Source: Peptococcaceae bacterium
GTDB lineage: Bacteria; Bacillota; Desulfitobacteriia; Desulfitobacteriales; Syntrophobotulaceae
NCBI GenBank assembly: GCA_009782825.1
Contig: WRII01000007.1
Span: 1-64,000 of the forward strand
Length of the DNA: 64,000 nucleotides
Direction of reading: 5' to 3'
The position numbers were made by a program, and so were the translations under genes. Position 1 is the first letter of the stretch, and each line of letters begins with the position of its first letter. Below the pieces are notes generated by a model, which was given only the letters and a program-made list of their open reading frames with translations, searched no databases and was not told the origin of the DNA. This document shows, piece by piece, positions 20,003-48,994 of this stretch.

Positions 20003-21175
20003 ATGATCAGCATAAGCAAATTGCTGTGCGATACGGAAAACTATGGGGATAACTTGCGGTATGCGCCGGGGAGTCATGGACAGCGCAATGGGGCTGTTTC
20101 CGGGCATGGTCCGGTGGTGGTGTGGAATTGCACACGCACGTGCAACCTTAAGTGTATCCATTGCTATTCGGCGTCGGATCACGAGAAGTATGATCAGATG
20201 AGTACGGATGAGGGGAAGAGATTTATTGATGATTTGGCGGACTTTAAGGTGCCGGTGATCCTCTTTTCCGGCGGAGAACCGTTGGTGCGTCCGGATTGTC
20301 TGGAGCTGATCGCGTATGCTCGCGAACGGGGACTGCGGACGACGCTGTCGACGAATGGAACGCTGATTACGGCGGAGAAGGCCCAGGTGCTGAAGGATCT
20401 GAATGTGGGGTATGTGGGGATTAGTTTGGATGGGCTGGGAGAGGTGAATGACCGTTTTCGCGGCCAGGAGGGGGCGTTTGACAAGGCGCTGCAGGGGATT
20501 CGCAATTGTTTGGCTGTGGATCAGAAGGTGGGCCTGAGGTTTACTATTAATAGGCATAATTATAAGTATTTGAATGATATTTTTGATTTGGTGGAGCAGG
20601 AGAATATTCCGCGGGTGTGTTTTTATCATCTGGTGTATTCGGGCAGGGGCAGCGCTATGATTGATGAGGATATCAGCAAGGAGGAGAGCCGTCAGGGTAT
20701 GGAGCTGATTATGGAGAGGACGCTGGATTTTCATCAGCGGGGAGTGACTAAAGAGATTCTGACGGTGGACAACCATGCGGATGCGATCTATGTTTACTTG
20801 AAGCTTAAGGAGAGGGAGCCGGAGCGGGCGGAATATGTCCGGGAGCTGCTGCTCAGAAATGGGGGAAACCGTTCGGGGATTGCGATTGGGCAGGTGGATT
20901 GGCTGGGCAATGTTCATCCGGATCAGTTTACGGGAGGGCATTGTTTAGGGAATGTCCGGGAAAGAAATTTTGGCGAAATTTGGTCGGACACGAGCCATCC
21001 TATTATGGCGGGAATGAAGGATCGCAAGCCTTTACTCAAGGGCCGCTGTGCGGCGTGTGCGCATTTGGCGATGTGCAACGGGAACTTCCGGACTCGGGCG
21101 GAGGCTGTGTATGGTGATTTTTGGGCGGAGGATCCGGCGTGTTATTTGACGGATGAGGAGATAGGAGGCAGCTGA
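20003..21175 (+). CDS. ahbC: Radical SAM protein AhbC/NirJ1 (12,18-didecarboxysirohaem deacetylase)
   Basis: The 390-residue radical SAM enzyme is predicted to remove two acetate side chains from didecarboxysirohaem to give Fe-coproporphyrin III. The [4Fe-4S]-SAM motif is Cys47-x3-Cys51-x2-Cys54 in TCNLKCIHC, with an additional Cys43. The FSGGEP motif follows. A C-terminal cysteine cluster (CAACAHLAMCNGNFR and a later Cys) is the SPASM/twitch-like auxiliary site. The N terminus MISISKLLCDTENYGDNLRY matches NirJ1-type proteins. The ahbD gene follows after 3 bases, supporting the assignment. Confidence 0.9.
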   Translation: MISISKLLCDTENYGDNLRYAPGSHGQRNGAVSGHGPVVVWNCTRTCNLKCIHCYSASDHEKYDQMSTDEGKRFIDDLADFKVPVILFSGGEPLVRPDCLELIAYARERGLRTTLSTNGTLITAEKAQVLKDLNVGYVGISLDGLGEVNDRFRGQEGAFDKALQGIRNCLAVDQKVGLRFTINRHNYKYLNDIFDLVEQENIPRVCFYHLVYSGRGSAMIDEDISKEESRQGMELIMERTLDFHQRGVTKEILTVDNHADAIYVYLKLKEREPERAEYVRELLLRNGGNRSGIAIGQVDWLGNVHPDQFTGGHCLGNVRERNFGEIWSDTSHPIMAGMKDRKPLLKGRCAACAHLAMCNGNFRTRAEAVYGDFWAEDPACYLTDEEIGGS

Positions 21176-21178
21176 TTA

Positions 21179-22171
21179 ATGATCATTTCTTGGAATACGA
21201 CGAATGCGTGTAATTTGTTTTGTGCCCACTGTTATCGGGACGCGGGGGCGAAACAGGATGAGGAGCTGAATACGGAGGAAGGCAAGCGTTTGCTGGATCA
21301 GATTGCTGAAGCGGGCTTCAAGATTATGATTTTTAGCGGCGGCGAGCCTTTTATGCGTTCTGATATTGTGGAGTTGGTGGCTCATGCCCGTTCGCGGGGG
21401 CTGCGGCCGGTTTTTGGCACGAATGGGACTTTGATAACTCCGGAGATTGCCAGGGATCTGAAGGCGGCTGGAACTATGGGTGTGGGGATCAGTCTCGACA
21501 GCTTGGATCTTGAAAAGCATGATCACTTGCGGGGTCAGGCTGGGAGCTGGGAAGGCGCTGTGCGGGGGATGAGGGCCTGCCGGGAAGCGGGGCTGGCATT
21601 TCAGATTCATACCACGGTTATGGAGTGGAATGACCCTGAGGTGGAGGCGATTACGGATTTTGCGGTGGCGCAGGGGGCGGTGGCTCATCATATTTTTTTC
21701 CTGGTTCCTACGGGCCGGGCGGTGGATATTGAGCAGGAGTCTCTGCGGGCGGAACAGTATGAAAATATTCTGGAGCGGATTATGCGGAAGCAGCAGACGG
21801 TGGATATTGAGTTGAAGCCGACTTGCGCGCCTCAGTTCATGCGCATTGCTAAACAGATGGGTATGGAGCTGCGTTATGAGCGGGGATGTCTGGCGGGAAC
21901 GTCTTATTGCATTATTGGGCCTAAGGGGGATGTGCAGCCTTGTGCGTATTTGAATATGTCTCTGGGCAATGTTAAGGAGAAGTCTTTCGTGGAGATTTGG
22001 CGGAACAGCCCGGTTTTTCAGGAGCTGCGTACCTTGGAGTATCAGGGGGGCTGCGGAACGTGTGAGTTTAAATACAAGTGCGGCGGCTGCCGGGCGCGGG
22101 CGTATTTCTATCATGGCAGCTATATGGCGGAAGAGCCGTGGTGTTTGTATCATGGACGGAGGGGATATTGA
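21179..22171 (+). CDS. ahbD: Radical SAM protein AhbD/NirJ2 (haem synthase)
   Basis: The 330-residue enzyme is predicted to oxidatively decarboxylate the two propionates of Fe-coproporphyrin III to vinyl groups, giving haem b. The radical SAM motif is Cys11-x3-Cys15-x2-Cys18 close to the N terminus. FSGGEP follows, and a C-terminal auxiliary Fe-S region reads CGTCEFKYKCGGCRARAYF. The short N terminus before the motif is typical of NirJ2/AhbD compared with AhbC. It is tightly coupled to ahbC (3-base spacing, TTAATG start). Confidence 0.9.
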   Translation: MIISWNTTNACNLFCAHCYRDAGAKQDEELNTEEGKRLLDQIAEAGFKIMIFSGGEPFMRSDIVELVAHARSRGLRPVFGTNGTLITPEIARDLKAAGTMGVGISLDSLDLEKHDHLRGQAGSWEGAVRGMRACREAGLAFQIHTTVMEWNDPEVEAITDFAVAQGAVAHHIFFLVPTGRAVDIEQESLRAEQYENILERIMRKQQTVDIELKPTCAPQFMRIAKQMGMELRYERGCLAGTSYCIIGPKGDVQPCAYLNMSLGNVKEKSFVEIWRNSPVFQELRTLEYQGGCGTCEFKYKCGGCRARAYFYHGSYMAEEPWCLYHGRRGY

Positions 22172-22456: not shown

Positions 22457-23107
22457 GTGATAGAGTCGGGTATGCTGAAGAAGCCTGTCATGAAGATCGA
22501 TGTCGAGAATGTCTCCAAGAAGTTCGGCTCGCGCTCTCTGTTTTCCGGTATTTCATGCCATCTCGGTGCTGGGGACTGCTTGATTATTACGGGGCGTAAT
22601 GGTTCGGGAAAGTCGACTTTGGTGAAGATTTTGGCCCGGCTTTTGCGTCCGACTTCCGGGACTGTTGCGTTTATGTATGAGGGGCAGGAGTGCTGCGACT
22701 GGGAAGACTGTCTTTCCCATATCGGCTTTGTTTCGCCGGAAATTATGTTCTATGATAATTTAACAGGCCGGGAGAATTTGGAGTTTATGGCGCGTGCGCG
22801 GGGGGTTCGCCTTCTGCCTGCCCAGTTCGAGGAGACGCTGGCCCGGGTGGGGCTGGATTCCCGGGGATCTCAGTTTGTTAAGACGTACTCAACGGGGATG
22901 AAGCAGCGCTTAAAGTTTGCGGCGATGCTGGCTTTGGAGCCAATCGTATGGTTTGTGGATGAGGGCCTGTCTAATCTGGACGCTGATGGCCGGGGTTTGG
23001 TTCTTGATTTGGTGAAGCAGTCCCTTGAGAAGGGATGTGTGCTGATTATGGCCACAAATGATGTGCTGGAGGCTGAGTATGCAACACAAACCATCGCGCT
23101 TTCCTAG
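22457..23107 (+). CDS. ccmA: Haem exporter ABC transporter ATP-binding protein CcmA
   Basis: The protein of up to 216 residues is the ATPase of the CcmAB(C) transporter, which releases holo-CcmE during cytochrome c maturation. Walker A is GRNGSGKST at about 46-54, the signature region reads YSTGMKQRLKFA, and Walker B ends IVWFVDEG. Start choice is uncertain: GTG 22457, ATG 22472 and ATG 22490 are all in frame, and none has an ideal ribosome-binding site. Its 3' end overlaps ccmB. It is the first gene of the cytochrome maturation-nitrite reductase block. Confidence 0.86.
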   Translation: MIESGMLKKPVMKIDVENVSKKFGSRSLFSGISCHLGAGDCLIITGRNGSGKSTLVKILARLLRPTSGTVAFMYEGQECCDWEDCLSHIGFVSPEIMFYDNLTGRENLEFMARARGVRLLPAQFEETLARVGLDSRGSQFVKTYSTGMKQRLKFAAMLALEPIVWFVDEGLSNLDADGRGLVLDLVKQSLEKGCVLIMATNDVLEAEYATQTIALS

Positions 23108-23777
23108 TTTTTTTATGAGTGTGGGAGCTGTGCTGCGTAAGGACGCGCTCAGTGAGCTGCGCAGCAAATACGCGTTTAGCACATTGGCGGTGTTTGCGTT
23201 GACCTGTCTGGCTGGGATCAGTATGAGTATAGGCGGTGGTGAGCTGACTCAGCTGAATCCGCAGGTGCAGTCGGTGCTTTTGTGGATTGTCTTGTTTTTC
23301 TCCGCTATGGCCGGATTGGGCCGGGTTTTTGTTCAGGAACAGGATGCGGGGACGCTGCTGACTTTGAAGGTTTCTGCGCCTCCTCAGGCGGTTTATTTTG
23401 GTAAAGTGATTTTTAATGTTTTTTTGCTGGTGAGCTTGAGTGTCCTGGTCTTAATTCTTTTTATAGTTTTTTTTGATGTTTCTGTGTCGGATTGGCTTTC
23501 CCTAATTGGTGTGCTTTGGCTGGGCAGTATAGGGTTGTCTATCATTGCGACAATGACGGCGGCGATGGCGGCCCAGGCCCAGGGACGGGCGTCTTTGTTT
23601 ACCATTATTACATTTCCGTTGATTTTACCGGAGTTCTTGAGTGCGATTGAAGGGACTCGCGCCGTTCTGGCAGGTGAAGCGGTTGAGCTTACGCAGTTTC
23701 TGTTTTTGGGAGGCTATGGGGTGGTGGCGCTGGTTGCGGGCTCTATTTTGTTTGATTATCTTTGGATAGAGGGATAG
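23079..23777 (+). CDS. ccmB: Haem exporter permease CcmB
   Basis: The 232-residue integral membrane protein has about six hydrophobic segments and CcmB landmarks: an early LRKDALSELRSKYAF, then GRVFVQEQDAGTLLTL. It partners CcmA. ATG 23079 was chosen over an in-frame ATG at 23058 because CTGGAGG lies immediately before it, inside the end of ccmA (29-base overlap). It ends 18 bases before ccmC. Confidence 0.88.
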   Translation: MQHKPSRFPSFFMSVGAVLRKDALSELRSKYAFSTLAVFALTCLAGISMSIGGGELTQLNPQVQSVLLWIVLFFSAMAGLGRVFVQEQDAGTLLTLKVSAPPQAVYFGKVIFNVFLLVSLSVLVLILFIVFFDVSVSDWLSLIGVLWLGSIGLSIIATMTAAMAAQAQGRASLFTIITFPLILPEFLSAIEGTRAVLAGEAVELTQFLFLGGYGVVALVAGSILFDYLWIEG

Positions 23778-23795
23778 AGAAAGGGGGCCAAAGAG

Positions 23796-24521
23796 ATGTT
23801 GGGGAGGCTGTCTAAGGGAGATAACTTATTTGGAATTATTACTGGTGTATGGCTTGTGGCCACGGCTGTGGCTGTTTTTGCCTTACCGCCTGTTGAACCT
23901 ATTGAGTATTTTGGGTATAGTGCACGTATTTTATTTTTCCATATTCCTATGGCCTGGATCGCTGTTGTGGCTTTTCTCATGGGGGCTTGGTGGGCGGTTC
24001 AATACCTGAGGAAGAGAGATTTGGCTCAGTTTCATCATGGTTCATTGTCCAATAAGGTGGGTTTGGTTTTTACCTTGCTGGCGACCGTCAGCGGAGCGGT
24101 GTATGGCAAATTGACCTGGGGAACTTTCTGGAATTGGGATGTCAGACAAACCACAATTTTTATTCTGCTGCTTATTTATGCCGCATATATTGTTTTGGGG
24201 TATTCGATTGAGGATGAGGAGAAGAGAGCGAGGATTTCCGCTGTTTATTCTCTGTTTGCTTTTGTTACGGTGCCTTTTCTGTTTTTTGTGATTCCACGGC
24301 TGGGAATTACCACGATACATCCTACATCATTTAACATGACTTTTAATATGGTTCTGGTTCTTGTTGCGGCTTTGCTGGGAATTACGGCTTTATTCATCTG
24401 GATTGTCCGCTGTGGCGCGGCTTATAGACGGAATAGGGTTGTCGAACCGACTGCGCAAGAGGAGCCGGCTTCTTTTGCGCAAACGAGTAAGGATTTACAG
24501 AATGGAGAGGATCAAACATGA
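23796..24521 (+). CDS. ccmC: Haem-handling protein CcmC
   Basis: The 241-residue membrane protein belongs to the haem-handling CcsA/CcmC family. It attaches haem to CcmE. The tryptophan-rich WWD motif reads WGTFWNWDVRQTT, flanked by conserved histidines in FFHIPMAW and in the later TIHPTSF. About six transmembrane helices are visible. AAAGGGGGCC precedes the ATG. It overlaps the ccmE start by 4 bases (ATGA). Confidence 0.92.
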   Translation: MLGRLSKGDNLFGIITGVWLVATAVAVFALPPVEPIEYFGYSARILFFHIPMAWIAVVAFLMGAWWAVQYLRKRDLAQFHHGSLSNKVGLVFTLLATVSGAVYGKLTWGTFWNWDVRQTTIFILLLIYAAYIVLGYSIEDEEKRARISAVYSLFAFVTVPFLFFVIPRLGITTIHPTSFNMTFNMVLVLVAALLGITALFIWIVRCGAAYRRNRVVEPTAQEEPASFAQTSKDLQNGEDQT

Positions 24522-24898
24522 CAAAGGGCCGGATGAAAAGACGTCATATGATATATCTGGGCATCGTTGTGGTTTTTATTGTCATTTCCGTTGTGGCTTT
24601 TGCCGGTTCAGTGACGCCCTATGTGACTTTTGATGAGGCTAAGGCTAGGAACACGTCGGTGCAGGTTCGCGGAGACTTGGTTGGCGAGGTTAAAAACTTA
24701 GAGGACGGGCAAGGGATTGCTTTTGATTTAAAGGATGATAACGGAACGGTGGTTCAGGTCGTGTATAAAGGAATCAAACAGGACAACATGGATCATGCTG
24801 ATGGGTTGGTGGTGCAGGGCAAAATTGACGGCGATGTTTTTTGCGCAAGTAAGATTCTCGTCAAATGTCCTTCAAAATATGAGAGCAAAGGAGGCTGA
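24518..24898 (+). CDS. ccmE: Haem chaperone CcmE, CxxxY variant
   Basis: The 126-residue protein has one N-terminal membrane anchor (MIYLGIVVVFIVISVVAF) and an outside OB-fold. CcmE carries haem covalently on the way to apocytochromes. In most bacteria the attachment motif is HxxxY; here the matching C-terminal position reads CPSKY (Cys117-Tyr121), the cysteine variant known from archaea and some sulfate reducers. The 5' end overlaps ccmC and ccmF follows after 8 bases. GGAGAGGATC is the ribosome-binding site. Confidence 0.9.
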   Translation: MTKGRMKRRHMIYLGIVVVFIVISVVAFAGSVTPYVTFDEAKARNTSVQVRGDLVGEVKNLEDGQGIAFDLKDDNGTVVQVVYKGIKQDNMDHADGLVVQGKIDGDVFCASKILVKCPSKYESKGG

Positions 24899-24906
24899 AA
24901 AGCTCA

Positions 24907-27900
24907 ATGATTGGGATGATGGCATTGTTTTGTGCGGGGGTATTTACGCTTATAGCGATTGTGCTCAATGCACTGGATCTCAAGGAGTTGCCTGTTGGGA
25001 ATGGGAGTAAATCAGGTCTCCCTTTGCAGGATGTAAAGCAGCGTACCCATATTTTTTATAATTTGTCTGTGGCGAGTCTTGTTGCGGCTTCGTTTTATTT
25101 ATGGTTTATTATTCTGAATGATCAGTTTGCCTATAAATATGTTTCCAATTACTCTGCTACGGATTTGTCAGTGATCTATAAGATTACCGCGTTCTGGGCA
25201 GGTGCGGAAGGATCGTTCTTGCTCTGGGTGCTTTTGCATGGGTTGATCGGGCTGTGGCTGTATCGGCGGAAGGATGTTTTGCCGGGAGTCAAGCTGGTGT
25301 ACAGCGCTGTGCAGATGTGCCTGCTGGTGGTTCTGACAATGAAAAGTCCTTTTATGCAAATTACGGGGCATGCGATGGACCTTACGGAAGGGGGGGGGCT
25401 CAATCCGCTCCTGCAAAATCCATGGATGGTTTCCCATCCGCCTCTTTTGTTTATGGGATATGCGGGGTTAGCGGTTCCTTTTGCCCTGGCTGTGGGGTCG
25501 CTGCGGGGCGGCGATTATAAGTCATGGATCAAGAAGGCGTTGCCTTTTTCGCTGTTTTCCTGGGCCTTTTTGGGCGTCGGGATCTTTCTTGGCGGGTATT
25601 GGGCCTATGAGACTTTGGGCTGGGGAGGGTATTGGGCTTGGGATCCGGTGGAAAATGCGTCTCTCATTCCATGGTTGGTGTGCGGTGGGTTGATCCACTT
25701 TTTGATCCTTTCTCTGAAAAGGCCTCCGAATGTCAAAGCGGCGGGTTTGGCGGCGGTATTCAGTTATGGGCTGGTGTTGTTGGGAACTTGGCTCACGCGC
25801 AGCGGCTTCTTTAAAGATTCTTCACAACACTCGTTTGCGGGCGAAGAGGCTAGGGTTATCATTATATTGGGTGTGATTGTTTTCTTGGTCGTGGCTGTCC
25901 CCTTGATCCTGTTTATAGTGAAATGGCCGAAGCTGCCGGTGGCGGAGGAGGAGGAGGAACCTCTCAAAACCAGGGGGTCTATGACCTGGTACGGAGCTAT
26001 TGCCTTGTGCGTTTTTGGAGGGGTCGTGCTGTTCGGCATCTTGGCTTCGATAGTGACGGGGATCGTCAAAGCCCCAACGGAAATCGATATGTCGTATTAT
26101 AATCCGACGGGACTGCTGGTGATGTTGGCTGTTCTGGCGCTCATGGTTCTGGCGACTTTTTTTGCCTGGGGGAAAAGCCCGAAAGGAACAGGCCAGAAAA
26201 AAGGGGCATCAAAGCAGGCGGGTGAAAATATAGGTGAAAATATAGAAGAAAAAGCTGAGGTCTTGGACCCGGTCAGGAAACCTGGCGGAATTAACGGATT
26301 CACACTCGGCGTGGTGGTGTTAAGCGCACTGCTGTTGATGGGGATTGGAGTGCTTATCGGCATTCGGCCTGACGCCGGTTTTATGAATATCTTGATGTTT
26401 GCGTTTATCCTCTTGGGATTGGCGGGAGCGGGCGCGGTCTGCGCCGCCAGTGTTCTTGCGTTCTTCAGGAAGGACGTGCGCAAGGGGATGAGCCGGGCCG
26501 CGTTATTTACCCATATCGGGTTGGCGGTTCTCACGGCGGGGATTCTGTTTTCATCCGCAGGAACACACAAGGATCTGCAGACACTTGAAGCTGGGGCGGA
26601 AAAGACGATTTTGGGCCGTCAAGTCACCTATATTGGTCTTGACGTAGGGGACTTCCGCCTTGACCGTGACGGGTATTTGATTGAACCGGGCACAGGGGAG
26701 GTCGTCCAGGGGTTTGCCAACAGCACTTTGCGGGGGACGGAGACAAAAGGGGTGAAACCAACTTGGAGCACGGATCCCGGCCCGGTCAACATGAGTCTTG
26801 GTATGCCGCATCCGGATCCTGCCTTGAAAGATTTCGTTCTTACCGGCTTTTCCGTCACTGGAAAAGGTGTGGTTATCGGAGTTTATAGGGACAGCGCTCA
26901 GTCTATTTCGGAACAGCTGTTCGTGGTGCCTTTGGAGGACTTTATCTTTAACAATGACGGCAACATGATTGAACCCTTCACAGGAGTGCTTGTCCCGGGG
27001 TTTGCCAACAGCTCTTTCCAGGGAACGGCTGCTGATGTCGTGGAGCCAGCCTGGAGTACGGATCCCGGTCCCATCACTCTTAGCCTGGGTATGCTGCATC
27101 CGGATCCTGCCAAGAGTGATTTTGCCCTTGCTGATTTCACTGTTGATGAGAAAGGTGTGGTTACCGGGATCTATGCGAACGGCCTCATGGAGATGATTAG
27201 GGAACAACTGTTTAGGGTGGCCATGAAGAATTACACCAATCCTGGTGGTTATGTCCAAAGATTTGTTGTAGACGGTGAAATTGTTGAAATCACAACAGGT
27301 ATGAGTGAAAAATTTGGAGATCTGCACAAGCCGGCTATTTTATGGTCGTTGGTGGAGGACTACTATATGGCTCCCGGCCATATAGAGAACCAAGAAAGTT
27401 CTGACCATGAGCTGGCCCAAGGAATTCCTGTGGAGATCAAGATTGATAAGGAGACGATCCGTGTCAGACTGAAAGAAATTAAAATGGAAAATCCGGATGC
27501 TGATGATGCTTCCGCGTATGCCTTGTTTGATGTTGTTTACAAGGAAGAGCTTCAGGAGGTTCGCCTGGAATGGATAAAAACCGACGCCGGATTCAACCCT
27601 GTGCCGGTAATTATGTTTGATAAATATGAGTTTAGGATGACGGAGATCAATAACGAACAATCGAAAGTTGTTCTGCGTGTCAAGAAGGAATATGAACTGC
27701 AGCAGGAAACGCCTATTACACTGGCAGTTGCGGACGAAAAACTTACAATAACGCTGAAGGAGTGCGGGGCGGGCAGCGAGGATTCTGCCGCTGCCAATAC
27801 GTCGTATTTCGCTGTGTTGGACGTGGCTCGGAACGGAGCAGTTCAGGAGAATGGAGAGATCCAAGAGAACGGAGAGATCCAAGAGAACGGAGAAGTCCAA

Positions 27901-28239
27901 GAGAACGGAGAGACCCAAGAGAACGGAGAAGTCCAAGAGGTTCGTATTGAGATGACGAGATCCGGTTCTAACGCGAATTGGGTTTCTGTCCCGGGGACGG
28001 TCTTTGATCAATATACTTTTGAGTTGACAGGAATCAGCGTGTCCCAGAATCGAATAGCGATAGCGATTCAAGATATGAATGAAGCTATCATTAATGATAG
28101 AGTGAACATGGAGGTTTCCACCAAGCCGCTCATGGTTCTTGTTTGGCTCGGCACGATCTTGATCAGTGCGGGTATAATCTGGGCGGCTCTCAAAAGATGG
28201 GGTCCTAGTCCTTTTCAGGATTTACGTAACAAAAAATAA
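24907..28239 (+). CDS. ccmF: Cytochrome c haem lyase subunit CcmF with large duplicated insertion
   Basis: The first ~560 residues are a recognisable CcmF: multiple membrane helices, HPPLLFMGYAG, and a WWD motif GWGGYWAWDPVENASL at about 233-256. CcmF ligates haem to apocytochromes. At 1110 residues it is far longer than the usual ~630-700. After residue ~579 come two tandem 96-residue modules (DF...DGYLIEPGTGEVVQGF and DF...DGNMIEPFTGVLVPGF), the second ending KNYTNPGG. Their pattern resembles flagellar hook/rod protein sequence. Then comes a beta-rich acidic region, a stretch of ENGEIQ hexapeptides (about 979-1012), and a final transmembrane helix (PLMVLVWLGTILISAGIIW). AAAGGAGG lies 13 bases before the ATG. 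Frame is continuous, so this is not a sequencing join visible from here. Confidence 0.9.
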   Translation: MIGMMALFCAGVFTLIAIVLNALDLKELPVGNGSKSGLPLQDVKQRTHIFYNLSVASLVAASFYLWFIILNDQFAYKYVSNYSATDLSVIYKITAFWAGAEGSFLLWVLLHGLIGLWLYRRKDVLPGVKLVYSAVQMCLLVVLTMKSPFMQITGHAMDLTEGGGLNPLLQNPWMVSHPPLLFMGYAGLAVPFALAVGSLRGGDYKSWIKKALPFSLFSWAFLGVGIFLGGYWAYETLGWGGYWAWDPVENASLIPWLVCGGLIHFLILSLKRPPNVKAAGLAAVFSYGLVLLGTWLTRSGFFKDSSQHSFAGEEARVIIILGVIVFLVVAVPLILFIVKWPKLPVAEEEEEPLKTRGSMTWYGAIALCVFGGVVLFGILASIVTGIVKAPTEIDMSYYNPTGLLVMLAVLALMVLATFFAWGKSPKGTGQKKGASKQAGENIGENIEEKAEVLDPVRKPGGINGFTLGVVVLSALLLMGIGVLIGIRPDAGFMNILMFAFILLGLAGAGAVCAASVLAFFRKDVRKGMSRAALFTHIGLAVLTAGILFSSAGTHKDLQTLEAGAEKTILGRQVTYIGLDVGDFRLDRDGYLIEPGTGEVVQGFANSTLRGTETKGVKPTWSTDPGPVNMSLGMPHPDPALKDFVLTGFSVTGKGVVIGVYRDSAQSISEQLFVVPLEDFIFNNDGNMIEPFTGVLVPGFANSSFQGTAADVVEPAWSTDPGPITLSLGMLHPDPAKSDFALADFTVDEKGVVTGIYANGLMEMIREQLFRVAMKNYTNPGGYVQRFVVDGEIVEITTGMSEKFGDLHKPAILWSLVEDYYMAPGHIENQESSDHELAQGIPVEIKIDKETIRVRLKEIKMENPDADDASAYALFDVVYKEELQEVRLEWIKTDAGFNPVPVIMFDKYEFRMTEINNEQSKVVLRVKKEYELQQETPITLAVADEKLTITLKECGAGSEDSAAANTSYFAVLDVARNGAVQENGEIQENGEIQENGEVQENGETQENGEVQEVRIEMTRSGSNANWVSVPGTVFDQYTFELTGISVSQNRIAIAIQDMNEAIINDRVNMEVSTKPLMVLVWLGTILISAGIIWAALKRWGPSPFQDLRNKK
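26650..27225 (+). repeat. 288-bp tandem duplication inside ccmF
   Basis: Two consecutive 288-bp units (26650-26937 and 26938-27225) encode 96-residue modules that align without gaps. Shared stretches include GFANS, WSTDPGP, SLGM.HPDPA, KGVV and EQLF. The codons have diverged, so the duplication is not very recent. Confidence 0.85.
27841..27940 (+). repeat. 18-bp in-frame tandem repeat in ccmF
   Basis: About five units of an 18-bp sequence encode the hexapeptide QENGEI or close variants (NGEV, NGET). It is nearly perfect at nucleotide level, implying recent expansion. Confidence 0.9.
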
Positions 28240-28257
28240 CAAAAAGGAGGCGATAAT

Positions 28258-28716
28258 GTGAAAGCCGGCAAGCAATCTTTCAAAATGGCAGCGATTGGGT
28301 TCGTTGTCGCGTTGGTTTTAGTGGGCGCTGGCGGGGCAGCTTACGCTTACATGGAATCACCCAGCTTTTGTGGCGGATGTCATGCCATGCAGGAACAATA
28401 TCATTCATGGAATGACTCCGCGCATCAAACTGTTGATTGCAGTGACTGCCATCTGCCCCACGATAACATTGCTAGCACTTTGTGGGCCAAGACTCAGACG
28501 GGTGTTGTAGATGTCTATCAGCAAGCGACGAGAGGGTATGATTTAGAAATCACAGTTACCGAGAAGGGCAAGGAATATTTACAGAAAAATTGTATACGTT
28601 GTCACGAGCCTGCGATCAAAGAAACCGGAATGGGCTTTGATAAGGATGGTGACGGCAGAGACTGTACGTCATGCCACCGGAACCTTGTTCATGGCGGCAA
28701 GACGATTTCACAATAG
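28258..28716 (+). CDS. nrfH: Cytochrome c nitrite reductase small subunit NrfH
   Basis: The 152-residue NapC/NirT-family quinol dehydrogenase passes electrons from menaquinol to NrfA. It has one N-terminal membrane anchor and four haem motifs: CGGCH (38-42), CSDCH (61-65), CIRCH (112-116) and CTSCH (136-140). The start is GTG 28258 after a strong AAAGGAGG; the apparent ATG two bases before is out of frame. It ends 14 bases before nrfA. Confidence 0.93.
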   Translation: MKAGKQSFKMAAIGFVVALVLVGAGGAAYAYMESPSFCGGCHAMQEQYHSWNDSAHQTVDCSDCHLPHDNIASTLWAKTQTGVVDVYQQATRGYDLEITVTEKGKEYLQKNCIRCHEPAIKETGMGFDKDGDGRDCTSCHRNLVHGGKTISQ

Positions 28717-28730
28717 GGGAGGGATCTGAT

Positions 28731-30125
28731 GTGAGTACTGCCCAAAAAGTATTGGTTGGTGTGGTGATCGTTGTATGTTTGGTCGTAGGCGGCGTCCTCG
28801 GCTTTTTACTTGGAGGAGGCAATGGCTACAAGGTCGTTGAAACTGACTCAAAAGGAGTGAGTGGCAACAAGTACGATCCTGCATCGTACAAAGACAAGTA
28901 TCCGCTGCAATATGCAAGCTATATGGAAGCGTCTAAGTATCCTGAGGGCCGGGATAAACCCGGGGATTTTGGCGGGGATAAACTTTTTGATCATGTGAAT
29001 GGAGGTAAACAGACCGAATTAGTAACACTCTTTGGTCCAAACCCGTTCAGTGTTTATTACGCAGATGACCGCGGTCATGTCTATGCTCTCGATGATCTTT
29101 TCGATTCAGGACGTACCAAGGGTCCGAATCCATACGATCCACCCAAAACATTCAGTCAAAGGGGCGCCTGCGTCACATGCAAAACTCCATACCTGGAGCA
29201 AATCTTTGACGACAACAAGTTTGGGAGTGATGATTGGGGTTTTGCCAAGGTACCTTTCGATGAAATGAGGGACAGCTATTTTGACGATCAGATGAAGGAG
29301 CATGGGTCAATCAACTGTGCCACCTGTCACGATCCGGAGACCCATGAGCTGAGGATCATTAATAAGGCTCTGAAGTTTGCCTTTGAAAAGGGGATTCCTG
29401 GATACAAGGATGGGGAGCCCATTGACTGGGAAAAGGCAACCAAGCAGGAAATGCGCACCTATGTTTGCGCGCAGTGTCATGTTGAATACTACTTTGAGCC
29501 TGACACTTTCAGAGTGGTTTTCCCATGGGATAATGGATTGGAGTTTGACAAACAATACGAGCACTATAAAACGGAGCCCAATGGCTTTAAGCAGGACTTT
29601 AAGAATGGGACTTCCGGAGCGGCCATCCTAAAAGCGCAGCATCCTGATTTTGAAGCCTGGACGACCGGCGTTCATGGCAAAGCCGGTGTGGCTTGTGCTG
29701 ATTGCCACATGCCTTATGTGACCAAAAACGGAGAGAAATATTCGACTCATGATGTGACCAGTCCCTTGCGGACCGTGGAAAATTCTTGTATGCAATGTCA
29801 CAATGATCAAACAAAAGAATGGCTGATCGATTCTGTGACGAGCATTCAGGCTAATTTCTGGGTCCAGCAGCACGAAGCCGAGTTGGCTGTGTCCAAAGCC
29901 CACCAGACCATTAAAGCTGCTAAGGATGCAGGGGCCTCTGACGAAGCTCTGGCCGAGGCACTTGAACTCGTTAGGGAAGCACAATGGTATTGGGATTTTG
30001 TAGCCGCTGAAAACGGTATGGGCTTCCACAATCCCGATCAAGGAATGAAAGCCACTGGTCAGTCCATTGTGAAAGCAAATGAAGCTATTCTCTCCGCTTA
30101 CAAAGCCGCCGGCAAGTCACTGTAG
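28731..30125 (+). CDS. nrfA: Ammonia-forming cytochrome c nitrite reductase NrfA
   Basis: The 464-residue pentahaem enzyme reduces nitrite to ammonia in six electrons outside the membrane. The active-site haem motif is the special CVTCK (Cys147-Lys151), and four CxxCH motifs follow (CATCH, CAQCH, CADCH, CMQCH). The start is GTG at 28731, preceded by AGGGGAGGG; an upstream in-frame ATG inside nrfH is rejected. An N-terminal hydrophobic segment (VLVGVVIVVCLVVGGVLGFLL) serves as signal or anchor. Conserved catalytic surroundings such as EKYSTHDVTSPL are present. It needs the CcmABCEF proteins and haem genes next to it. Confidence 0.95.
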   Translation: MSTAQKVLVGVVIVVCLVVGGVLGFLLGGGNGYKVVETDSKGVSGNKYDPASYKDKYPLQYASYMEASKYPEGRDKPGDFGGDKLFDHVNGGKQTELVTLFGPNPFSVYYADDRGHVYALDDLFDSGRTKGPNPYDPPKTFSQRGACVTCKTPYLEQIFDDNKFGSDDWGFAKVPFDEMRDSYFDDQMKEHGSINCATCHDPETHELRIINKALKFAFEKGIPGYKDGEPIDWEKATKQEMRTYVCAQCHVEYYFEPDTFRVVFPWDNGLEFDKQYEHYKTEPNGFKQDFKNGTSGAAILKAQHPDFEAWTTGVHGKAGVACADCHMPYVTKNGEKYSTHDVTSPLRTVENSCMQCHNDQTKEWLIDSVTSIQANFWVQQHEAELAVSKAHQTIKAAKDAGASDEALAEALELVREAQWYWDFVAAENGMGFHNPDQGMKATGQSIVKANEAILSAYKAAGKSL

Positions 30126-30364: not shown

Positions 30365-30832
30365 GTGGATGCAGTATTGGATCAGATAGACAGGGACTTG
30401 CTGAATCAGATTCAGGAGGAGATTCCGGTGACGGAGCGGCCCTATGCTCAGATGGCGGAAAGCTTGGGAATTAGCGAAGAAGAAGTGATAGAGCGCCTGG
30501 CAGTCTTCAAGAACCAGGAAGTGATCCGTAGAATGGGGGGGGTTTTTGATTCCCGGCGCCTTGGCTATAAGGGAACGCTGTGTGCTATGAAGGTGCCCCG
30601 GGAGCGCATTGAAGAGGTGGCGGCGATTATCAATCAGTACACGGGAATTACACACAATTACTTGCGCCGCCATGACTACAATATGTGGTTTACTTTGTTA
30701 AGCAGGAGTCTGGAAAAGACGGAGAAGATTTTGGCGGAAATCCGCAGAAAGACGGGGATCGATGACTTGATGGATCTGCCTTCGCGCCGTTTCTTTAAGG
30801 TGAGAGTGAATTTTGATGTGAAGGCGACTTAG
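30365..30832 (+). CDS. ahbA: Sirohaem decarboxylase subunit AhbA (Lrp/AsnC-like)
   Basis: The protein of about 155 residues has an N-terminal winged-helix-like segment (RPYAQMAESLGISEEEVIER) and an AsnC-type C-terminal domain. It carries the active-site-like LRRHDYNMWFTL typical of AhbA/NirD-type proteins. With AhbB it decarboxylates sirohaem at C12 and C18 to didecarboxysirohaem. The start is GTG 30365 or possibly TTG 30377, both after AAAGGAAGG. Eight to 22 bases separate it from ahbB. It should be cytoplasmic and enzymatic, despite looking like a transcription factor. Confidence 0.88.
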   Translation: MDAVLDQIDRDLLNQIQEEIPVTERPYAQMAESLGISEEEVIERLAVFKNQEVIRRMGGVFDSRRLGYKGTLCAMKVPRERIEEVAAIINQYTGITHNYLRRHDYNMWFTLLSRSLEKTEKILAEIRRKTGIDDLMDLPSRRFFKVRVNFDVKAT

Positions 30833-30854
30833 ATGGGAGATGGGAGATAACCTG

Positions 30855-31334
30855 ATGGATTTTAACGAAGCGGATAAGAAACTCATTGTTGAACTGCAGG
30901 CGGGTCTGCCCCTTGTGTCCCGGCCTTTTGCCGAATTGGGAGAAAGAGTGGGTCTCAGCGAAGCTCAGGTTCTGGGGCGGGTGCGGGAATGGAAGGAGGC
31001 AGGTGTCCTCAGACGGCTGGGGGCAGCGCTGCGCCATAGAAAGGTGGGGTATTCGGGTAATGCCCTGCTGGTCTGGAAGATCCCAGAGGATCGTGTCGGC
31101 GAAGTGGGAAAAAAATTCGCGGCTTTGCCGGAAGTGAGTCATTGCTATGAACGGCAGGTGCTGCCTCAGTGGCCGTATAGTCTGTATACCATGGTGCATG
31201 GGGCAACGGAAGAGGCCTGTCTGGCTCTGGCAAAGAAGTTGGTTGACTTGGCGGGAGTGAGTGAGCATGACTATGATGTTCTTTATAGTTATGCGGAGTT
31301 GAAGAAGAGCAGTATGGAGTATTTTGCGGATTAA
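30855..31334 (+). CDS. ahbB: Sirohaem decarboxylase subunit AhbB (Lrp/AsnC-like)
   Basis: The protein of about 159 residues shares the AhbA architecture: a HTH-like segment (RPFAELGERVGLSEAQVLGR) then an AsnC-like domain with SHCYERQVLPQWPYSLYTM. ATG 30855 has GGGAG at proper spacing and is preferred to ATG 30840. It forms the sirohaem decarboxylase with AhbA and provides the substrate of the AhbC encoded at 20003. hemL follows after 53 bases. Confidence 0.88.
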   Translation: MDFNEADKKLIVELQAGLPLVSRPFAELGERVGLSEAQVLGRVREWKEAGVLRRLGAALRHRKVGYSGNALLVWKIPEDRVGEVGKKFAALPEVSHCYERQVLPQWPYSLYTMVHGATEEACLALAKKLVDLAGVSEHDYDVLYSYAELKKSSMEYFAD

Positions 31335-31387: not shown

Positions 31388-32761
31388 GTGCCCATGAAAA
31401 ACACGAGAAAGTCTGAAGACCTCTTTGCGCGGGCAGGCAGAGTGATACCGGGAGGGGTGAACAGCCCGGTTCGGGCTTTTGCTTCTGTAGGTCTCACGCC
31501 GCGTTTTATCGCACGGGGCGAAGGATGCAGGATTTGGGACGAAGATGGTAATGAATATATTGATTATGTGTGTTCGTGGGGGCCGCTTATTTTGGGACAC
31601 AGGCATCCGAGTGTCGAGGCGGCGGTGCGGGATGCGTTGGGCCGGGGATCTACTTTTGGCGCATCGACCCGGGGCGAGGTGGAACTGGCTGAGAAGATTG
31701 TCCAAGCTTTGCCGGGGGTGGACATGGTTCGCCTGGTCAATTCGGGGACGGAAGCGACCATGAGTGCGCTGCGTTTGGCCCGGGCTTTTACGGGGCGCAG
31801 TAAGATTGTCAAATTTGCCGGATGTTATCACGGTCATCACGATTCTTTGCTGATTAAAGCCGGATCAGGGGCGCTGACCTTTGGGGCGCCGTCGAGTCCG
31901 GGCGTGCCGATAGAGGTTGCCAGAAATACGCTGACAGCAGGTTATAATGACTTGGCCAGCTTGGAAGAAGTGTTGAGCGCCGAAGCGGGGTCAGATGCCG
32001 GCTTGGGATCCGGGCCAAAAGCCGGTCTGGGATCCGGGCCAAAAGCCGGATCAGATGTTGCCGCGGTCATTGTGGAGCCGGTGGCGGGAAATATGGGATT
32101 GGTACTGCCGGAACCTGGATTTCTGCAAGGGGTTCGCCGGGTATGTGACATGTATGGGGCTTTGCTGATTTTTGATGAGGTCATCACAGGGTTCCGTCTG
32201 GGCTATGGCGGCGCTCAAGCCTATTATGACGTCGTTCCGGATCTGACTTGCCTGGGCAAAACCATTGGCGGCGGGCTGCCGGTGGGGGCTTATGGCGGCA
32301 GACAGGATATTATGAGCATGATTTCTCCCAGCGGCCCTGTTTATCAGGCCGGAACTCTTTCGGGAAATCCTCTGGCTGTGGCGGCGGGGCTGGCCACTTT
32401 GGAGGAGGTGGCGCAGGAGGGTTTTTACGAAGACCTTGAGAAGAAGACCGGCGTTTTAGCTGAGGGATGGAGGCAGGCGGCTGAGAATGCGGGGGCGCCG
32501 ATCTGTCTGAACCAGATGGGATCCCTTATGACAAGCTTCTTTGTTCCGGAGGGGACATTGAGGGTCACGGATTTTGAGACAGCCGGCTCGGCGGATACAC
32601 AGCGATATGCGGAGTTTTTTAAATATATGCTGGAACAGGGTGTCTATTTGCCTCCGTCACAATTTGAGGCCTTGTTTGTGTCCGCGGCCCACGATGAAAA
32701 GAGCGTGCAGAGAACGATAGAGGCGGCGCAGCATGCGTTCTGGCGTTTGGGGCAGGACTAA
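31388..32761 (+). CDS. hemL: Glutamate-1-semialdehyde 2,1-aminomutase
   Basis: The 457-residue PLP enzyme converts glutamate-1-semialdehyde to 5-aminolevulinate, completing the C5 pathway begun by HemA. Landmarks are [36 protein letters not shown], the FDEVITGFR segment and PLP Lys291 in [16 protein letters not shown]. The start is GTG 31388 with AAGGAGAGG nine bases before; ATG 31394 is possible. Residues about 200-222 hold a non-conserved insertion, [20 protein letters not shown], produced by a 24-bp tandem duplication and located before [10 protein letters not shown]. The rest is normal. Confidence 0.94.
31997..32044 (+). repeat. 24-bp tandem duplication in hemL
   Basis: Two 24-bp units (31997-32020 and 32021-32044) differ at only a few bases and encode AGLGSGPK twice, in frame. 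Confidence 0.85.
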
Positions 32762-32955
32762 AACCGGAACCAAAGAGGAGACCCAAAGTTACAGCCCCTA
32801 AAAGGTATAATACAGAAGTTATGCCACAAATTATAGTCGGAATTTTTAAAAAAAGTAAGACTAAAGGGCTTTAATAATGTTTTAAAATGGAGTATAATGT
32901 AAAAAAGAGCATAGATATTCAATGTTGTATGTGGCAGCCTGTGAGGAGGAACCAG

Positions 32956-35900
32956 ATGAAAGACATTGTTCAAATACTGGGATTAACTTCGAATGGAGAT
33001 TCGGAGGTATTACTGCAGCAGCTAAAGAAGCGCAAGATGGAGGCCATGCGGAAGCTCTATCATGTTTCTAATGATGCTGAGAAATCGCAACAATTATACA
33101 ACCTCCTGGAAGATATAGAAATGGCCATATCCAATGTGCATGCCAGGGAACTGCCTAAGACGGATTCTACGGCGCTTGTTCCTCGTGGAAGGAGAGGTGA
33201 GAGGATAGAACATCCGCAAAAGAATCTGTCCCTGTCTAAAAAGGAGGGTTCTTTTGAGAAGAGTGATGGCGAGAAGCGAGTCAGTGATACAATGTCAGCT
33301 CTTACATCCTATATCCTGCAAGAATATGGAACCAGCGAGGTACAGAAGGAAGGGATATCCCATAAGAAAGAGGTGTCTGGCAAGAGCGAGGCATCTGGTA
33401 AGAGAGAGTCTGCTAAGAGGGAGTTTGGTAAGAGGGAGTCTGGTAAGAGGGAGTCTGGTAAGAGAGAAACTTATGGCAAGACAGAAGCGCACAGAAAAAA
33501 AGGAACATCTGGAGAGGCGCTAAGAAGTGCTTTTTCTAAAGATGACTTGGGTCGGGCACACCAGAATAAAACCCGTTTCGCAGAAGATGAGGCTAGGGGC
33601 TTTTTTTTAACAGAATCTGGGCATGAGGACAGGATTAGTGAAGAAAAGGGTCACAAGGAACCTGTCAGGCAGTTAAAGGCTTCGTCAAAAGCTTTCCCAA
33701 AAAAAGACCCCGTCAACCCGGACGAGATTGCCCGTGCGCGCCAAAAGCTTGAAAAAGCTTTGCGTTCACGTGACCAGGAGATGGATCTAAAAAAAGACCT
33801 CATCAATATTGACGAAGTTAATTTGCTCAGGAACAAAAAGCCGAGGGCGTCTGCGCAACTCAAGTCTTCTGTTCCGGCAAAGGCGTCTGCTCCGCCCAAA
33901 TCTTCTGTTAGAGCCAAAGATTCTGCTTCGCCCAAATCTTTTGCTCTAACAAAGGACGCTGTTCAGCCAAGCCCCTCTGCGCAGTCTGAGGCTGCTGCGA
34001 AAAAAAAGGTTTCCACACAAAAAAGGGCTTCCCTTCACCCCAAGGCGTCCGTTTGGCCCAAAACTTCTGAGAAAGAAAAAGCTTCTGTTCAGACTGGCGA
34101 GACTTTTGTTGAGACAAAAAAAGCCGCTCGGGAGGAGTCTCTGGTTCGGACGGAGTCTCCGATCCGAAAGGAGTCTCCGATCCGAGTGGAGTCTCCGGTT
34201 CGGACGGAGTCTCCGATCCGAAAGGAGTCTCCGATCCGAGTGGAGTCTCCGGTTCGAGAGGAGTCTCCGATCCGAAAGGAGCCTCCGATCCGAGTGGAGT
34301 CTCCGGTTCGAGAGGAGCCTCCGATTCGAGTGGAGCCTCCTGCCCGGCCCAAGCCTCAAGTGCGGCGAAGCGCTTCCCTTCAAAAAGAGCCTCCGATTCG
34401 AGTGGAGCCTCCTGCCCGGCCCAAGCCTCAAGTGCGGCGAAGCGCTTCTCTCCAGAAAGAACCTCCAATTCGAATGGAGCCTCCCACTCGGGCCAAGCCT
34501 TTTGTGCGGCGAAGCTCTTCCCTCCAAACAGAACCTTCGATTAAACAAGAGCCTGCTGTCCGGCCCAAGCCACCGGTTCAGGCAAGAGCTGACCTTTGGT
34601 CAGAACCGCCGAGCCGCTCAGAGTATTTTGCTCAGCCAGAGAGTTTTCCTATTCCACAAGAGAAGGGGGCTGACTCCGGTTTAATAAATGGGGCTATGGA
34701 GTTCGACGATTTCAGAGAGCCGACTCCGGTTTTGAACAATGGTTATAAATGGGATTCAGAGAGACAGGCTCATGAACAGCCTCAATGGAAAAGGATGGGC
34801 GGGGAGAACACGTGGGCTTCTGGGACGCACACCGCGGCCCCATTTTCCAGAGAGGCTGCTGGAGATGAGATTAAGGCCGACGCGGTTCTCCCGGTCGGCG
34901 CGGTTCTCCCGGTTGGCGCGGTTCCCCCGGTCGGCGCGGTTCTCCCGGTCGACGCGGTTCCCCCGGTCGGCGTGGTTCTCCCGGTCGGTGTGGTTCCCCC
35001 GGTCGGCGCGGTCCCCTCGGTCGACGCAGTCCCCTCGGTCGACATAGCTACCCTCGAAGAGACCCGCTTGGCGGAGGTGACTACGGGGATCATGCAGGCT
35101 GATCTACTTGCCAAGGTTAACGACCTGGAAACCCTCGTAGATTTTGGAAACATGTTTTGGCAAAGCCAGGACTATACACAGGCTTTGGACTATTATCGGC
35201 AGGCTGCCGAAAAAGGGTATCCTCCCGCGCAAAAGAAGATTGGCGACAGCTATTATTATGGCAGGGGCATTGAACAGGATTATAAAACGGCTTTGGGCTG
35301 GTATCTGAAAGCAGCGGAGCAAGGGTGGCCGGAGGCTCAGTGGATCCTTGGAGAGTGTTATTTTTGCGGAAATGGCGTAGAGGAAGATTATACGAAGGCC
35401 GTGAAGTGGTATCAGAGAGCGGCGGAACAAGGGGTGACTCAGGCCCAGTGCAATCTTGCTGACTGTTACTTCAATGGCAAAGGGGTTGCCCAAAATTATT
35501 ATGAAGCCATGCGATGGTATCGCAAAGGGGTGGAGCGGGGCCATCCTCAGGCCTATAAAGGACTTGGCGACGGCTATTATTCCGGATGTGGTACGGGTCA
35601 GGATTATGCTGCGGCTGCGCAATTTTATCAAAAAGCGGCAGAGCGCGGCAATATAGAGGCGCAAATCAATTTAAGCAGCTGTTATTATTATGGTGAGGGG
35701 GTTACGCAAGATTATACCAAGGCCTTGACATGGATGAAAAAAGCGGCTGAACGGGGCAGCTCAGTGGCTCAGGTCAATTTAGGGAGCTGCTACTCTCAAG
35801 GTATTGGTATACAAAGAAATCCTCAGGAAGCTGTCTCATGGTATCGCAAGGCGGCTGAGCAGGGGGATGCGCTGGCTCAGATGTATGTGGGCAGCTGTTA

Positions 35901-36138
35901 TTATTTTGGGGATGGCGCCCCCAGGGATTATGACCAAGCGGTATACTGGCTGCAGAAAGCAGCTGAGCAGGATAACCCAGATGCTCAGTTTAATTTAGGA
36001 ACCTGTTATTATCAAGGTCAGGGGGTTGCTCAAGACCAGCAAACAGCCCTGCTTTGGTATCAAAAGGCGGCTGGCCAGGGGCATGCTATGGCGAGGGAGA
36101 TGTCGGATAAGATTGAGAGGAGTCAATTTTCATGGTAG
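32956..36138 (+). CDS. Large Sel1-repeat protein with low-complexity middle
   Basis: The 1060-residue protein starts at ATG 32956 after GAGGAGG; a longer upstream frame lacks this site. The N-terminal ~55 residues are helical ([20 protein letters not shown]). A basic and proline-rich middle of some 680 residues is built of in-frame repeats: GKRES units, [12 protein letters not shown] hexapeptides, three copies of a 24-residue [15 protein letters not shown] unit, and VLPVGA hexapeptides. From about residue 740 come about nine Sel1-like TPR repeats ([20 protein letters not shown] and similar). Sel1 repeats scaffold protein complexes. No signal peptide or membrane helix was seen. The partner is unknown. 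It appears to be a single-gene unit with a -10-like TATAAT at 32893-32898. Confidence 0.82.
34136..34530 (+). repeat. In-frame minisatellites (18 bp and 72 bp) in the Sel1-protein gene
   Basis: The first part is about ten 18-bp units encoding [18 protein letters not shown] and similar. It passes into three 72-bp units encoding [18 protein letters not shown] followed by a Ser/Leu/Gln linker. Adjacent units are almost identical. Confidence 0.88.
34883..35045 (+). repeat. 18-bp VLPVGA-type repeat in the Sel1-protein gene
   Basis: Roughly nine 18-bp units of the GCGGTTCTCCCGGTCGGC type encode [12 protein letters not shown] and VPSVDA. They lie just before the Sel1 domain. Confidence 0.88.
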
Positions 36139-45793: not shown

Positions 45794-46818
45794 AATGTAC
45801 CGCTGTTGACAACAGGCTGAGCATCGCGATTGCCGCAGAGCACAACTAACAGGTTGCTGACCATGGCGGCTTTGCGTTCATTGTCGAGGGCAACAACATT
45901 GTTCTGACTGAGCTGAGTGAGCGCCATTTCTACGATGCTCACAGCGCCTTCGACAATCATCTGCCGCGCGTCAATAATAGCGGAGGCCTGCTGCCGCTGT
46001 AGCATGGCGGCGGCGATTTCTGGCGCGTAGGCTAAATGTGTAATGCGTGCTTCATGGACCTCGATGCCAGCGATCTCCATTTTTGACTGGATTTCGTCTT
46101 TCAGTTTCAACGAGATTTCCTGACTGCTGGCACGCAGAGTCTTTTCATGATCATCCCCGAAGGTATCGTAGGGGTAGAGGCGTACAATATTGCGCAACGC
46201 TGAGTCGCATTGGATGGAGAGGTATTCCTTATAGTTGTCCACATTGAAAACGGCTTTTGTTGGATTCACGACCTTCCACACAACCACGACGCCGATGATA
46301 ATTGGGTTGCCAAGTTGGTCATTGATTTTTTGACGCTCGTTATGGAGCGTCGAAATTTTCAACGATACTTTTTTACCTATTGTTGGGCTTTGGGTGGTGT
46401 GTCCACTCCCGGCCCCTTCCTTAGCGGCGGCCTTAACGGCAGCAAGCTCAGCCGTAGATGTCGTAGAAATGCCTGTTGGATTGACAGCTATGACGAAGGG
46501 ATTGACAAAATAAAAGCCTTCGCGTTTCAATGTGCCGTAGTACCGTCCAAACAGCGTTAAAACCAGGGCTTCATTCGGCTTTATCACTTTAAGACCAAGA
46601 AAAGGGATCCATCCAATTAGAAATGCGTAGACTGCACCGACAACTATCAGGATAATACCTAATGGATCGGCTTCGCCTTTATTTTCACACAGGGTGATGC
46701 CGAAAATAAACGCGGCTATGGCGGCAAGAATGAGCAGTATGCTCACCACTAAGACGGCCATACCGCTTTTAGCCTTGAGGTCTTTTTCTTCATAGCGATT
46801 CTTCGTTTCCGTGTTCAT
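45787..46818 (-). CDS. SPFH/Band 7 domain membrane protein
   Basis: The 343-residue protein has two N-terminal hydrophobic segments (about 20-44 and 52-75), then an SPFH domain beginning [20 protein letters not shown] and a long helical region ([19 protein letters not shown]). SPFH proteins form membrane scaffolds related to flotillin and stomatin. An Ala-rich low-complexity insertion (about 125-140, [16 protein letters not shown]) sits inside the domain. GGAGACTTTT precedes the ATG. It is followed on the same strand by the RHH gene. Confidence 0.87.
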
Positions 46819-47638: not shown

Positions 47639-48994
47639 ATGAATATGGAGTTCATCGAGGCCATTCATGAATTGGAAAAAGAAAGGGGGGTATCTGCTGA
47701 AATCCTGTTTGACGCCATTGAAGCGGCGCTTATCTCCGCATACAAGAAGAATTTTTCCACCTTACAAAACGTTAAGGTGACAATAGATCGTCAAACGGGA
47801 AAAATTAAAGTGTTTGCCTACAAAAATATTGTCGAAAAAGTCGAAGACGAGAAGCAGGAGATTTCTCTAAGCGACGCGCTCAAGATGAATCCCAACTATA
47901 CAGTGGAAGATATGGCGGAATTCGAAGTGACGCCGGGGGAATTTGGACGCATTGCGGCCCAGACGGCAAAACAAGTTGTGGTGCAGCGCATTCGTGAAGC
48001 CGAGCGGGGCATGATTTATGATGAGTTCATTAATCGCGAAGGGGATATTGTTACCGGGATTGTCCAACGCTATGAACAGCGTAATCTGATCATTGATCTG
48101 GGTAAAGTAGAAGCTGTTATTCCGGCCAATGAGCAGATTCCCGGAGAAGTGCACCAGCCTTTTGACCGGGTTAAGGCCTATGTGGTGGAAGTGAGGAACC
48201 ACAACAAGGGCCCGCAAATCCTCCTTTCCCGCACCCATCCCGGCTTGATTCGGCGCCTGTTCGAATTAGAAGTTCCCGAAATCCATGATGGGATTGTGGA
48301 AATCAAAGGTGTGGCCCGGGAAGCCGGCGCGCGATCCAAAATTGCTGTCTATTCCGGCAATCCCAATGTGGATCCTGTGGGGGCCTGTGTTGGCCAAAAA
48401 GGGAATCGGGTACAGGTGATTGTTAATGAATTGCGCGGTGAAAAGATGGATATCATTCCCTGGTCCCCGGATCCTGTAGATTTGATTTTTAATGCTCTCT
48501 CTCCAGCCAAGGTGCTGGGTGTTTATCCTAAAAACGAGCAGGGCGCCGCGGCCCTGGTGGTGGTTCCTGATTATCAGCTGTCTCTCGCCATTGGCCGCGA
48601 GGGCCAAAACGCGCGCTTGGCCGCAAAAATAACAGGATGGAAAATCGACATTAAAAGTGAGTCCCAGGCTAGAACTCAAAACCTCTATGAGGAAGAGTTT
48701 TCTTCTGATAATTATGAGGAAGGTTATGACGTCGATGGCTATGATGATGAGGGCTATGATGCCGGAGAGAGCTATGATGCTGAAGAGAGCTATGATGCTG
48801 AAGAGAGCTATGATGCTGAAGAGAGCTATGATGCTGAAGAGAGCTATGATGCCGGAGAGAGTTATGATGCCGAAGAGAGTTATGATGCCGAAGAGAGTTA
48901 TGATGCCGAAGAGAGTTATGATGCTGGAGAGAGTTATGATGCTGGAGAGAGTTATGATGCCGAAGAGGGCTATGATGCTGAAGAGGTCCATTAA
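47639..48994 (+). CDS. nusA: Transcription factor NusA with acidic repeat tail
   Basis: The 451-residue protein modulates pausing, termination and antitermination by binding RNA polymerase. The N-terminal domain (MEFIEAIHELEKERGVSAE), S1 domain (EGDIVTGIVQRYEQRNLI) and KH domains (GACVGQKGNRVQ; AIGREGQNARLAAKITGW) are complete. Beyond the usual end near residue 350 is a tail of about 80 residues consisting of about 13 SYDAEE/SYDAGE hexapeptides. The start ATG 47639 was chosen over the upstream GTG 47627 and ATG 47594; AAGGAG is 13 bases away, so the start is not certain. Confidence 0.93.
   Translation: MNMEFIEAIHELEKERGVSAEILFDAIEAALISAYKKNFSTLQNVKVTIDRQTGKIKVFAYKNIVEKVEDEKQEISLSDALKMNPNYTVEDMAEFEVTPGEFGRIAAQTAKQVVVQRIREAERGMIYDEFINREGDIVTGIVQRYEQRNLIIDLGKVEAVIPANEQIPGEVHQPFDRVKAYVVEVRNHNKGPQILLSRTHPGLIRRLFELEVPEIHDGIVEIKGVAREAGARSKIAVYSGNPNVDPVGACVGQKGNRVQVIVNELRGEKMDIIPWSPDPVDLIFNALSPAKVLGVYPKNEQGAAALVVVPDYQLSLAIGREGQNARLAAKITGWKIDIKSESQARTQNLYEEEFSSDNYEEGYDVDGYDDEGYDAGESYDAEESYDAEESYDAEESYDAEESYDAGESYDAEESYDAEESYDAEESYDAGESYDAGESYDAEEGYDAEEVH
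48752..48985 (+). repeat. 18-bp in-frame tandem repeat in nusA
   Basis: Thirteen 18-bp units of the AGCTATGATGCTGAAGAG type encode SYDAEE with SYDAGE variants. Several neighbouring units are identical, so copy number may vary between strains. Confidence 0.92.

Follow-up and report, generated by a model that had tools for sequence, protein, structure and literature searches.

The locus analysed here raises the question of how a module resembling the flagellar hook protein came to reside within a cytochrome c haem lyase. The gene, of the ccmF/nrfE type, occupies positions 24907–28239 on the plus strand of the window, that is, the whole 64,000-nucleotide stretch of Peptococcaceae DNA under study, and the original prediction, read from the letters alone, held that its frame is intact and that CcmF sequence lies on both sides of a hook-protein-like module. 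To our knowledge, no chimaera with a flagellar-type module inside a cytochrome c haem lyase is known, nor do we know of any hook-type sequence in CcsBA of System II; a literature search, with most subscription papers outside its scope, found no relevant paper linking CcmF to the hook.

The frame is indeed open throughout and encodes 1110 aa, and the module is flanked by the two Pfam domains of CcmF, Cytochrom_C_asm (3.3e-30) and CcmF_C (3.8e-9), both over their cut-offs. The NCBIfam profile TIGR00353 assigns the protein 224 bits, below the cut-off of 569 bits, a score that no CcmF in our phylum sample reaches. The core of an AF2 model of the whole CcmF, built with 30 CcmF rows, is confident, and in a Foldseek search the model matches CcmF (6zmq, E 2e-17), with CcsBA (7s9y) as the second-best match. 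The WWD haem-handling motif WGGYWAWDPVEN (residues 239–250; 25621–25656, plus strand) is intact and almost wholly invariant in the 30 CcmFs, and 4 histidines on the same strand, H177 (25435–25437), H264 (25696–25698), H308 (25828–25830) and H536 (26512–26514), are invariant in that set; under the published ligand-histidine scheme (PMC10663686), we read them, in this order, as the probable P-His1, TM-His1, P-His2 and TM-His2. Judged from its sequence, the haem lyase is full-length and apparently functional. It shares with CcmF/NrfE (6zmq, TIGR00353) the TM core, the WWD motif, the two periplasmic and two membrane histidines, the beta-cap that lies between the final pair of TM helices, and the location of the gene beside ccmABCE and nrfHA, but differs in carrying 200 hook-type residues in the cap, a duplicated C-terminal part of its own cap and a QENGE repeat, and in its length of 1110 aa, compared with mostly 630–830 aa for the frames of the phylum sample, where a CcmF match was obtained in 75 of 399 genomes. 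An extracytoplasmic beta domain above a WWD/P-His haem site is also found in CcsBA (7s9y), although that protein belongs to a different complex.

Within a run of ccmA-B-C-E-F-nrfH-nrfA, the gene is preceded by those for a ccmA-like ABC ATPase, ccmB, ccmC and ccmE (22457–24898, plus strand) and followed by nrfH and nrfA (28258–30125, plus strand), with a CVTCK haem site in NrfA. Haem-biosynthesis genes flank this run, namely, the radical SAM pair NirJ1 and NirJ2 upstream (20003–22171), and the siroheme decarboxylase AhbA/AhbB (30365–31334) and HemL downstream; haem making, haem attachment and nitrite reduction are therefore combined in one cluster. CcmH, a distinct pathway protein that does not enter into the definition of CcmF, was not found above cut-off in any of the 3 genomes of the genus, so that System I genes and a CXXCK-type NrfA (22457–30125 in the window) occur here in a genus without CcmH at that level. 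Being genus-wide, the lack of CcmH is no mark of the insert, and we dropped the idea that the insert stands in for this protein because the two congeners (G001 and G002), which lack the insert, lack CcmH as well.

The profile search against FlgE and FlgG proposed with the original prediction identifies FlgE as the specific relative of the module. An HMM built from 18 FlgE segments only, with the CcmF units left out, matches the 1110-aa CcmF with 167.8 bits (E 3.4e-51), and the isolated insert matches both the NCBIfam FlgE profile NF004241 (E 1.5e-7) and a solved FlgE structure, 6ndx (E 1.3e-5); a Pfam search with the isolated module gave no match. The similarity to FlgE nevertheless greatly exceeds chance and holds in both directions of comparison. 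When the insert was searched against its own genome, it found, apart from itself, a single place, positions 46608–47069 of contig C11, which encodes a 318-aa FlgE (324 bits against NF004241; 238 bits against the FlgEFG family, cut-off 70) that is also the nearest relative of the module. This flgE is adjoined by an FlgG-like gene and by one that we read as flgD-like.

The module consists of two tandem units. Unit 1 (residues 582–677, DFRLDRDGY...VVPLE; 26650–26937, plus strand) matches the FlgE HMM and is 54% identical to the organism's own FlgE over 94 columns, whereas unit 2 (residues 678–781, DFIFNNDGN...YTNPGG; 26938–27249, plus strand), which aligns with the FlgE of 6ndx, is 59% identical to it over 101 columns. 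The two are 54% identical to each other in protein and form a direct repeat of 247 nt at the DNA level (spacing 288 nt, 70% identity). The predicted pair of 96-residue units at 26650–27225 thus stands as to the number of units and the length of the first, which is 96 aa, but the second measures 104 aa and the module ends 24 nt further, at 27249. An antisense open frame of 258 aa (26551–27327, minus strand) lies over the insert; it shows no gene-like sign and is probably a by-product of codon composition.

Judging by sequence comparison, both units are homologues of FlgE domain D1: like the D1 of known FlgEs (9wwj, 6ndx, 1wlg) and of the organism's own 318-aa protein, they present the motifs DGxLxxPxTGxxVxGF, KGVVTGxY, EQLF and NPGG in this order, with 54–59% identity to the organism's own FlgE. 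Unlike FlgE, they lack D0, Dc, the first D1 hairpin (DGFFxVRLGSDIFYTRTG) and the C-terminal helix, and they sit in two copies in a membrane enzyme. Helices D0/Dc and the terminal motifs, which mark a whole flagellar hook protein, are absent from the protein, in which the insert extends from the counterpart of NFDFDRDGN to NPGG and the remainder is CcmF. Structure prediction was also proposed at the outset. An AF2 model of the insert alone, computed from an alignment that held FlgE rows, contains two repeated sets of beta-strands, and its sole probable PDB match in Foldseek is the FlgE D-I domain of 9wwj (probability 0.98), albeit with a weak E of 0.076; the mean pLDDT of the model is 69. Because the FlgE rows tilt the model towards FlgE, we take this result as backing for a D1 fold, not as proof. 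A mixed alignment of CcmF and FlgE was not used for folding because it divided FlgE between the two units.

Where, then, does the module sit in CcmF, and is it a regular part of the protein? In the AF2 model with 30 CcmF rows, pLDDT is below 50 for residues 582–656 and 662–780 and rises again at 781. The turn that holds the insert is bounded by two predicted strands, one before it (residues 571–580, RQVTYIGLDV; 26617–26646, plus strand), which aligns with all other CcmFs, and one after it (residues 782–788, YVQRFVV; 27250–27270, plus strand), which aligns with GYxQxFxV of the congeners. The insert lies in the beta-stranded periplasmic domain of CcmF. The orthologues of the two congeners (801 and 842 aa; about 55% identity in the core; ccmC just upstream), whose inspection had been suggested together with the prediction, align with this protein up to residues 578–579 and resume at about 767–777, without any sequence in between (2 of 2 without the insert). 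None of 22 further CcmF relatives from several phyla, compared in the mixed alignment, has an insert at the same turn, and among 138 CcmF-like frames from the loci compared, a few of them duplicates of one place, the FlgE-only HMM matches the frame of the window alone. A search for the module in 60 relatives recovered, elsewhere, only frames of 231–489 aa, which is FlgE-like size, and GTDB contigs scanned with just the module as query yielded no relative. The insert is seen in one genome only, and the species is represented by no other, independent genome among those found. The reading that would have undone the prediction, a normal CcmF periplasmic domain without a relation to the hook, is not what the insert-free orthologues and the HMM search reveal. 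That the module is an ancient part of CcmF merely resembling FlgE, through convergence or a shared fold, is refuted by the insert-free orthologues and has next to no probability, even though CcmF has a natural beta-cap in the same region (PMC10663686; 6zmq), given that the module is missing from both congeners and from all other CcmFs examined, is 54–59% identical to the organism's own FlgE, with which it shares derived residues, and is bordered on either side by native cap strands that are still present.

Only marginally more credible is an assembly chimaera, in which the insert would have been joined into ccmF by error. The assembly consists of 119 contigs, but the junctions are in frame at both ends, the units group with the FlgE of this genome and with no foreign one, and both G+C and third-position G+C fit ccmF. 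Moreover, the bases differ by 30% between the copies and by 31–37% from the only flgE, so that neither flgE nor any other assembled sequence, each at least 30% different, can have been their source.

The provenance of the module is indicated by several comparisons. Identity to the organism's own FlgE is 54% for unit 1 and 59% for unit 2, compared with 49–52% for the FlgEs of the two congeners. In the tree, the units are sisters (91/80), group with their own genome's FlgE (98/99), and fall with it inside the FlgE clade of the genus (99/99), whereas a topology that unites the 3 FlgEs and leaves the units outside is rejected by the AU test (p 0.024). At residues where this FlgE differs from those of both congeners, the units agree with it in 18 cases and with the congeners in 9. 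Taken together, these observations identify as the donor the flgE of the organism's own lineage, once this had separated from the congeners sampled. An origin of the hook-gene piece in some other, related species appears improbable, if less so than an assembly error: the units have long branches and those 9 residues in common with congeneric FlgE, but their nearest relative is the FlgE of this very genome, with which they group at 98/99, yet an unsampled sister species could share the same FlgE lineage.

Given that the units are closest to this FlgE and that the congeneric CcmFs are insert-free, we conclude that the piece of flgE entered ccmF after the congeners split off and was duplicated afterwards; the copying of this piece into ccmF is recent. 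The synonymous divergence, 0.78 between the units and 1.2–1.35 between the units and FlgE, fits this order of capture first and duplication later. We thus propose, with a probability of about 0.85, that a D1 segment of the organism's own flgE was inserted in frame in a turn of the beta-cap and tandemly duplicated, leaving a haem lyase that is full-length and apparently functional. Under this scenario, a segment comprising most of D1, from NFDFDRDGN to ANPGG, would have been copied in frame, would have landed where two beta-strands of the beta-cap, on the extracytoplasmic side, are joined by a turn, and would then have been duplicated in tandem. As a result, two hook-D1-like beta units, presumably folding much as they do in FlgE, would form loops outside the membrane, situated above the haem-attachment site without being part of it.

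The junctions offer a hint at the mechanism. The right junction, AATCCTGGTGGT (NPGG; 27238–27249, plus strand), contains the codons AAT-CCN-GGN (NPG), which are common to flgE (ANPGGL) and to the insert-free ccmF of one congener, G001 (DNPGY); this short match fits illegitimate recombination, which the shared codons may have aided. For the left junction, an origin from sequence common to CcmF (LGRQVTY) and FlgE (LGSDIFY) was rejected, the resemblance being not beyond chance (shuffle p 0.19).

The hook units are not the only additions to this protein. A stretch of the C-terminal periplasmic part of CcmF is duplicated as well (residues 881–926 and 1008–1055; 27547–28071, plus strand; blastp E 3e-8 between the halves), a duplication unrelated to the hook units; the corresponding stretch of the cap is single-copy in both congeners, which lack the extra length. 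Its two copies are separated by a tandem repeat, QENGE(I/V/T), of about 6 units of 18 nt (27831–27939, plus strand), which is also absent from the congeners. Elsewhere in the window, HemL contains an in-frame repeat of 24 nt in 2.2 copies (GLGSGPKA, 31997–32049) that separates the two segments matched by the HemL profile, and the profile match of the HemL orthologue of the other congener (G002) is broken at the same place. Several further genes, such as that for a Sel1-like protein (32887–36138), harbour in-frame coding tandem repeats with units of 15, 18, 45, 54 and 72 nt (33364–35056, 48741–48985 and 50039–50397). Because such repeats are numerous in the window, in-frame additions seem either to arise readily in this genome or to be tolerated by it.

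What the insert does in its new place is less certain than how it came to be there. The omega value is 0.41 between the units (bootstrap 0.22–0.72) and 0.27 and 0.22 between the units and the organism's own FlgE; the frame runs open for 600 nt, and 0 of 5,000 shuffles were free of stops. The omega of 0.41 and the open frame indicate that the insert has been retained as protein, at least for folding. The periplasmic beta-stranded structure of CcmF is located directly above the active-site haem, and capping or substrate binding has been suggested for it, with its role left open (PMC10663686). Accordingly, the module might have been recruited as a new working part or binding surface of the beta-cap, using the surface of hook D1 to dock, for instance, an apocytochrome (such as the neighbouring NrfH/NrfA), CcmE or another copy of CcmF, and the omega below 1 between the units, their duplication and long retention, and the very position of the site would suit such recruitment. 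However, the need to fold would in itself produce purifying selection, the one obvious gap, the missing CcmH, is common to congeners without the insert, the units have diverged fast from FlgE (41–46% changed), and conservation of the surface is unreadable from a single genome, so that we regard recruitment as possible but rather unlikely. The role that we somewhat favour, in part because this genome is apparently so permissive of in-frame additions, is that of a self-folding decoration, tolerated by the enzyme, which makes the beta-cap larger and leaves the chemistry unchanged, as opposed to a selected new function.

In either case, the gene is a clear and recent case of a new domain architecture built by copying into a membrane enzyme part of an organism's own gene for an unrelated machine. 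Rarely can donor gene, insert-free orthologues and junctions all be inspected together, as they can here. For the CcmF family, the protein represents a natural test of how far the beta-cap tolerates insertion and, hence, of the part played by the cap in haem attachment, a point left open in PMC10663686.
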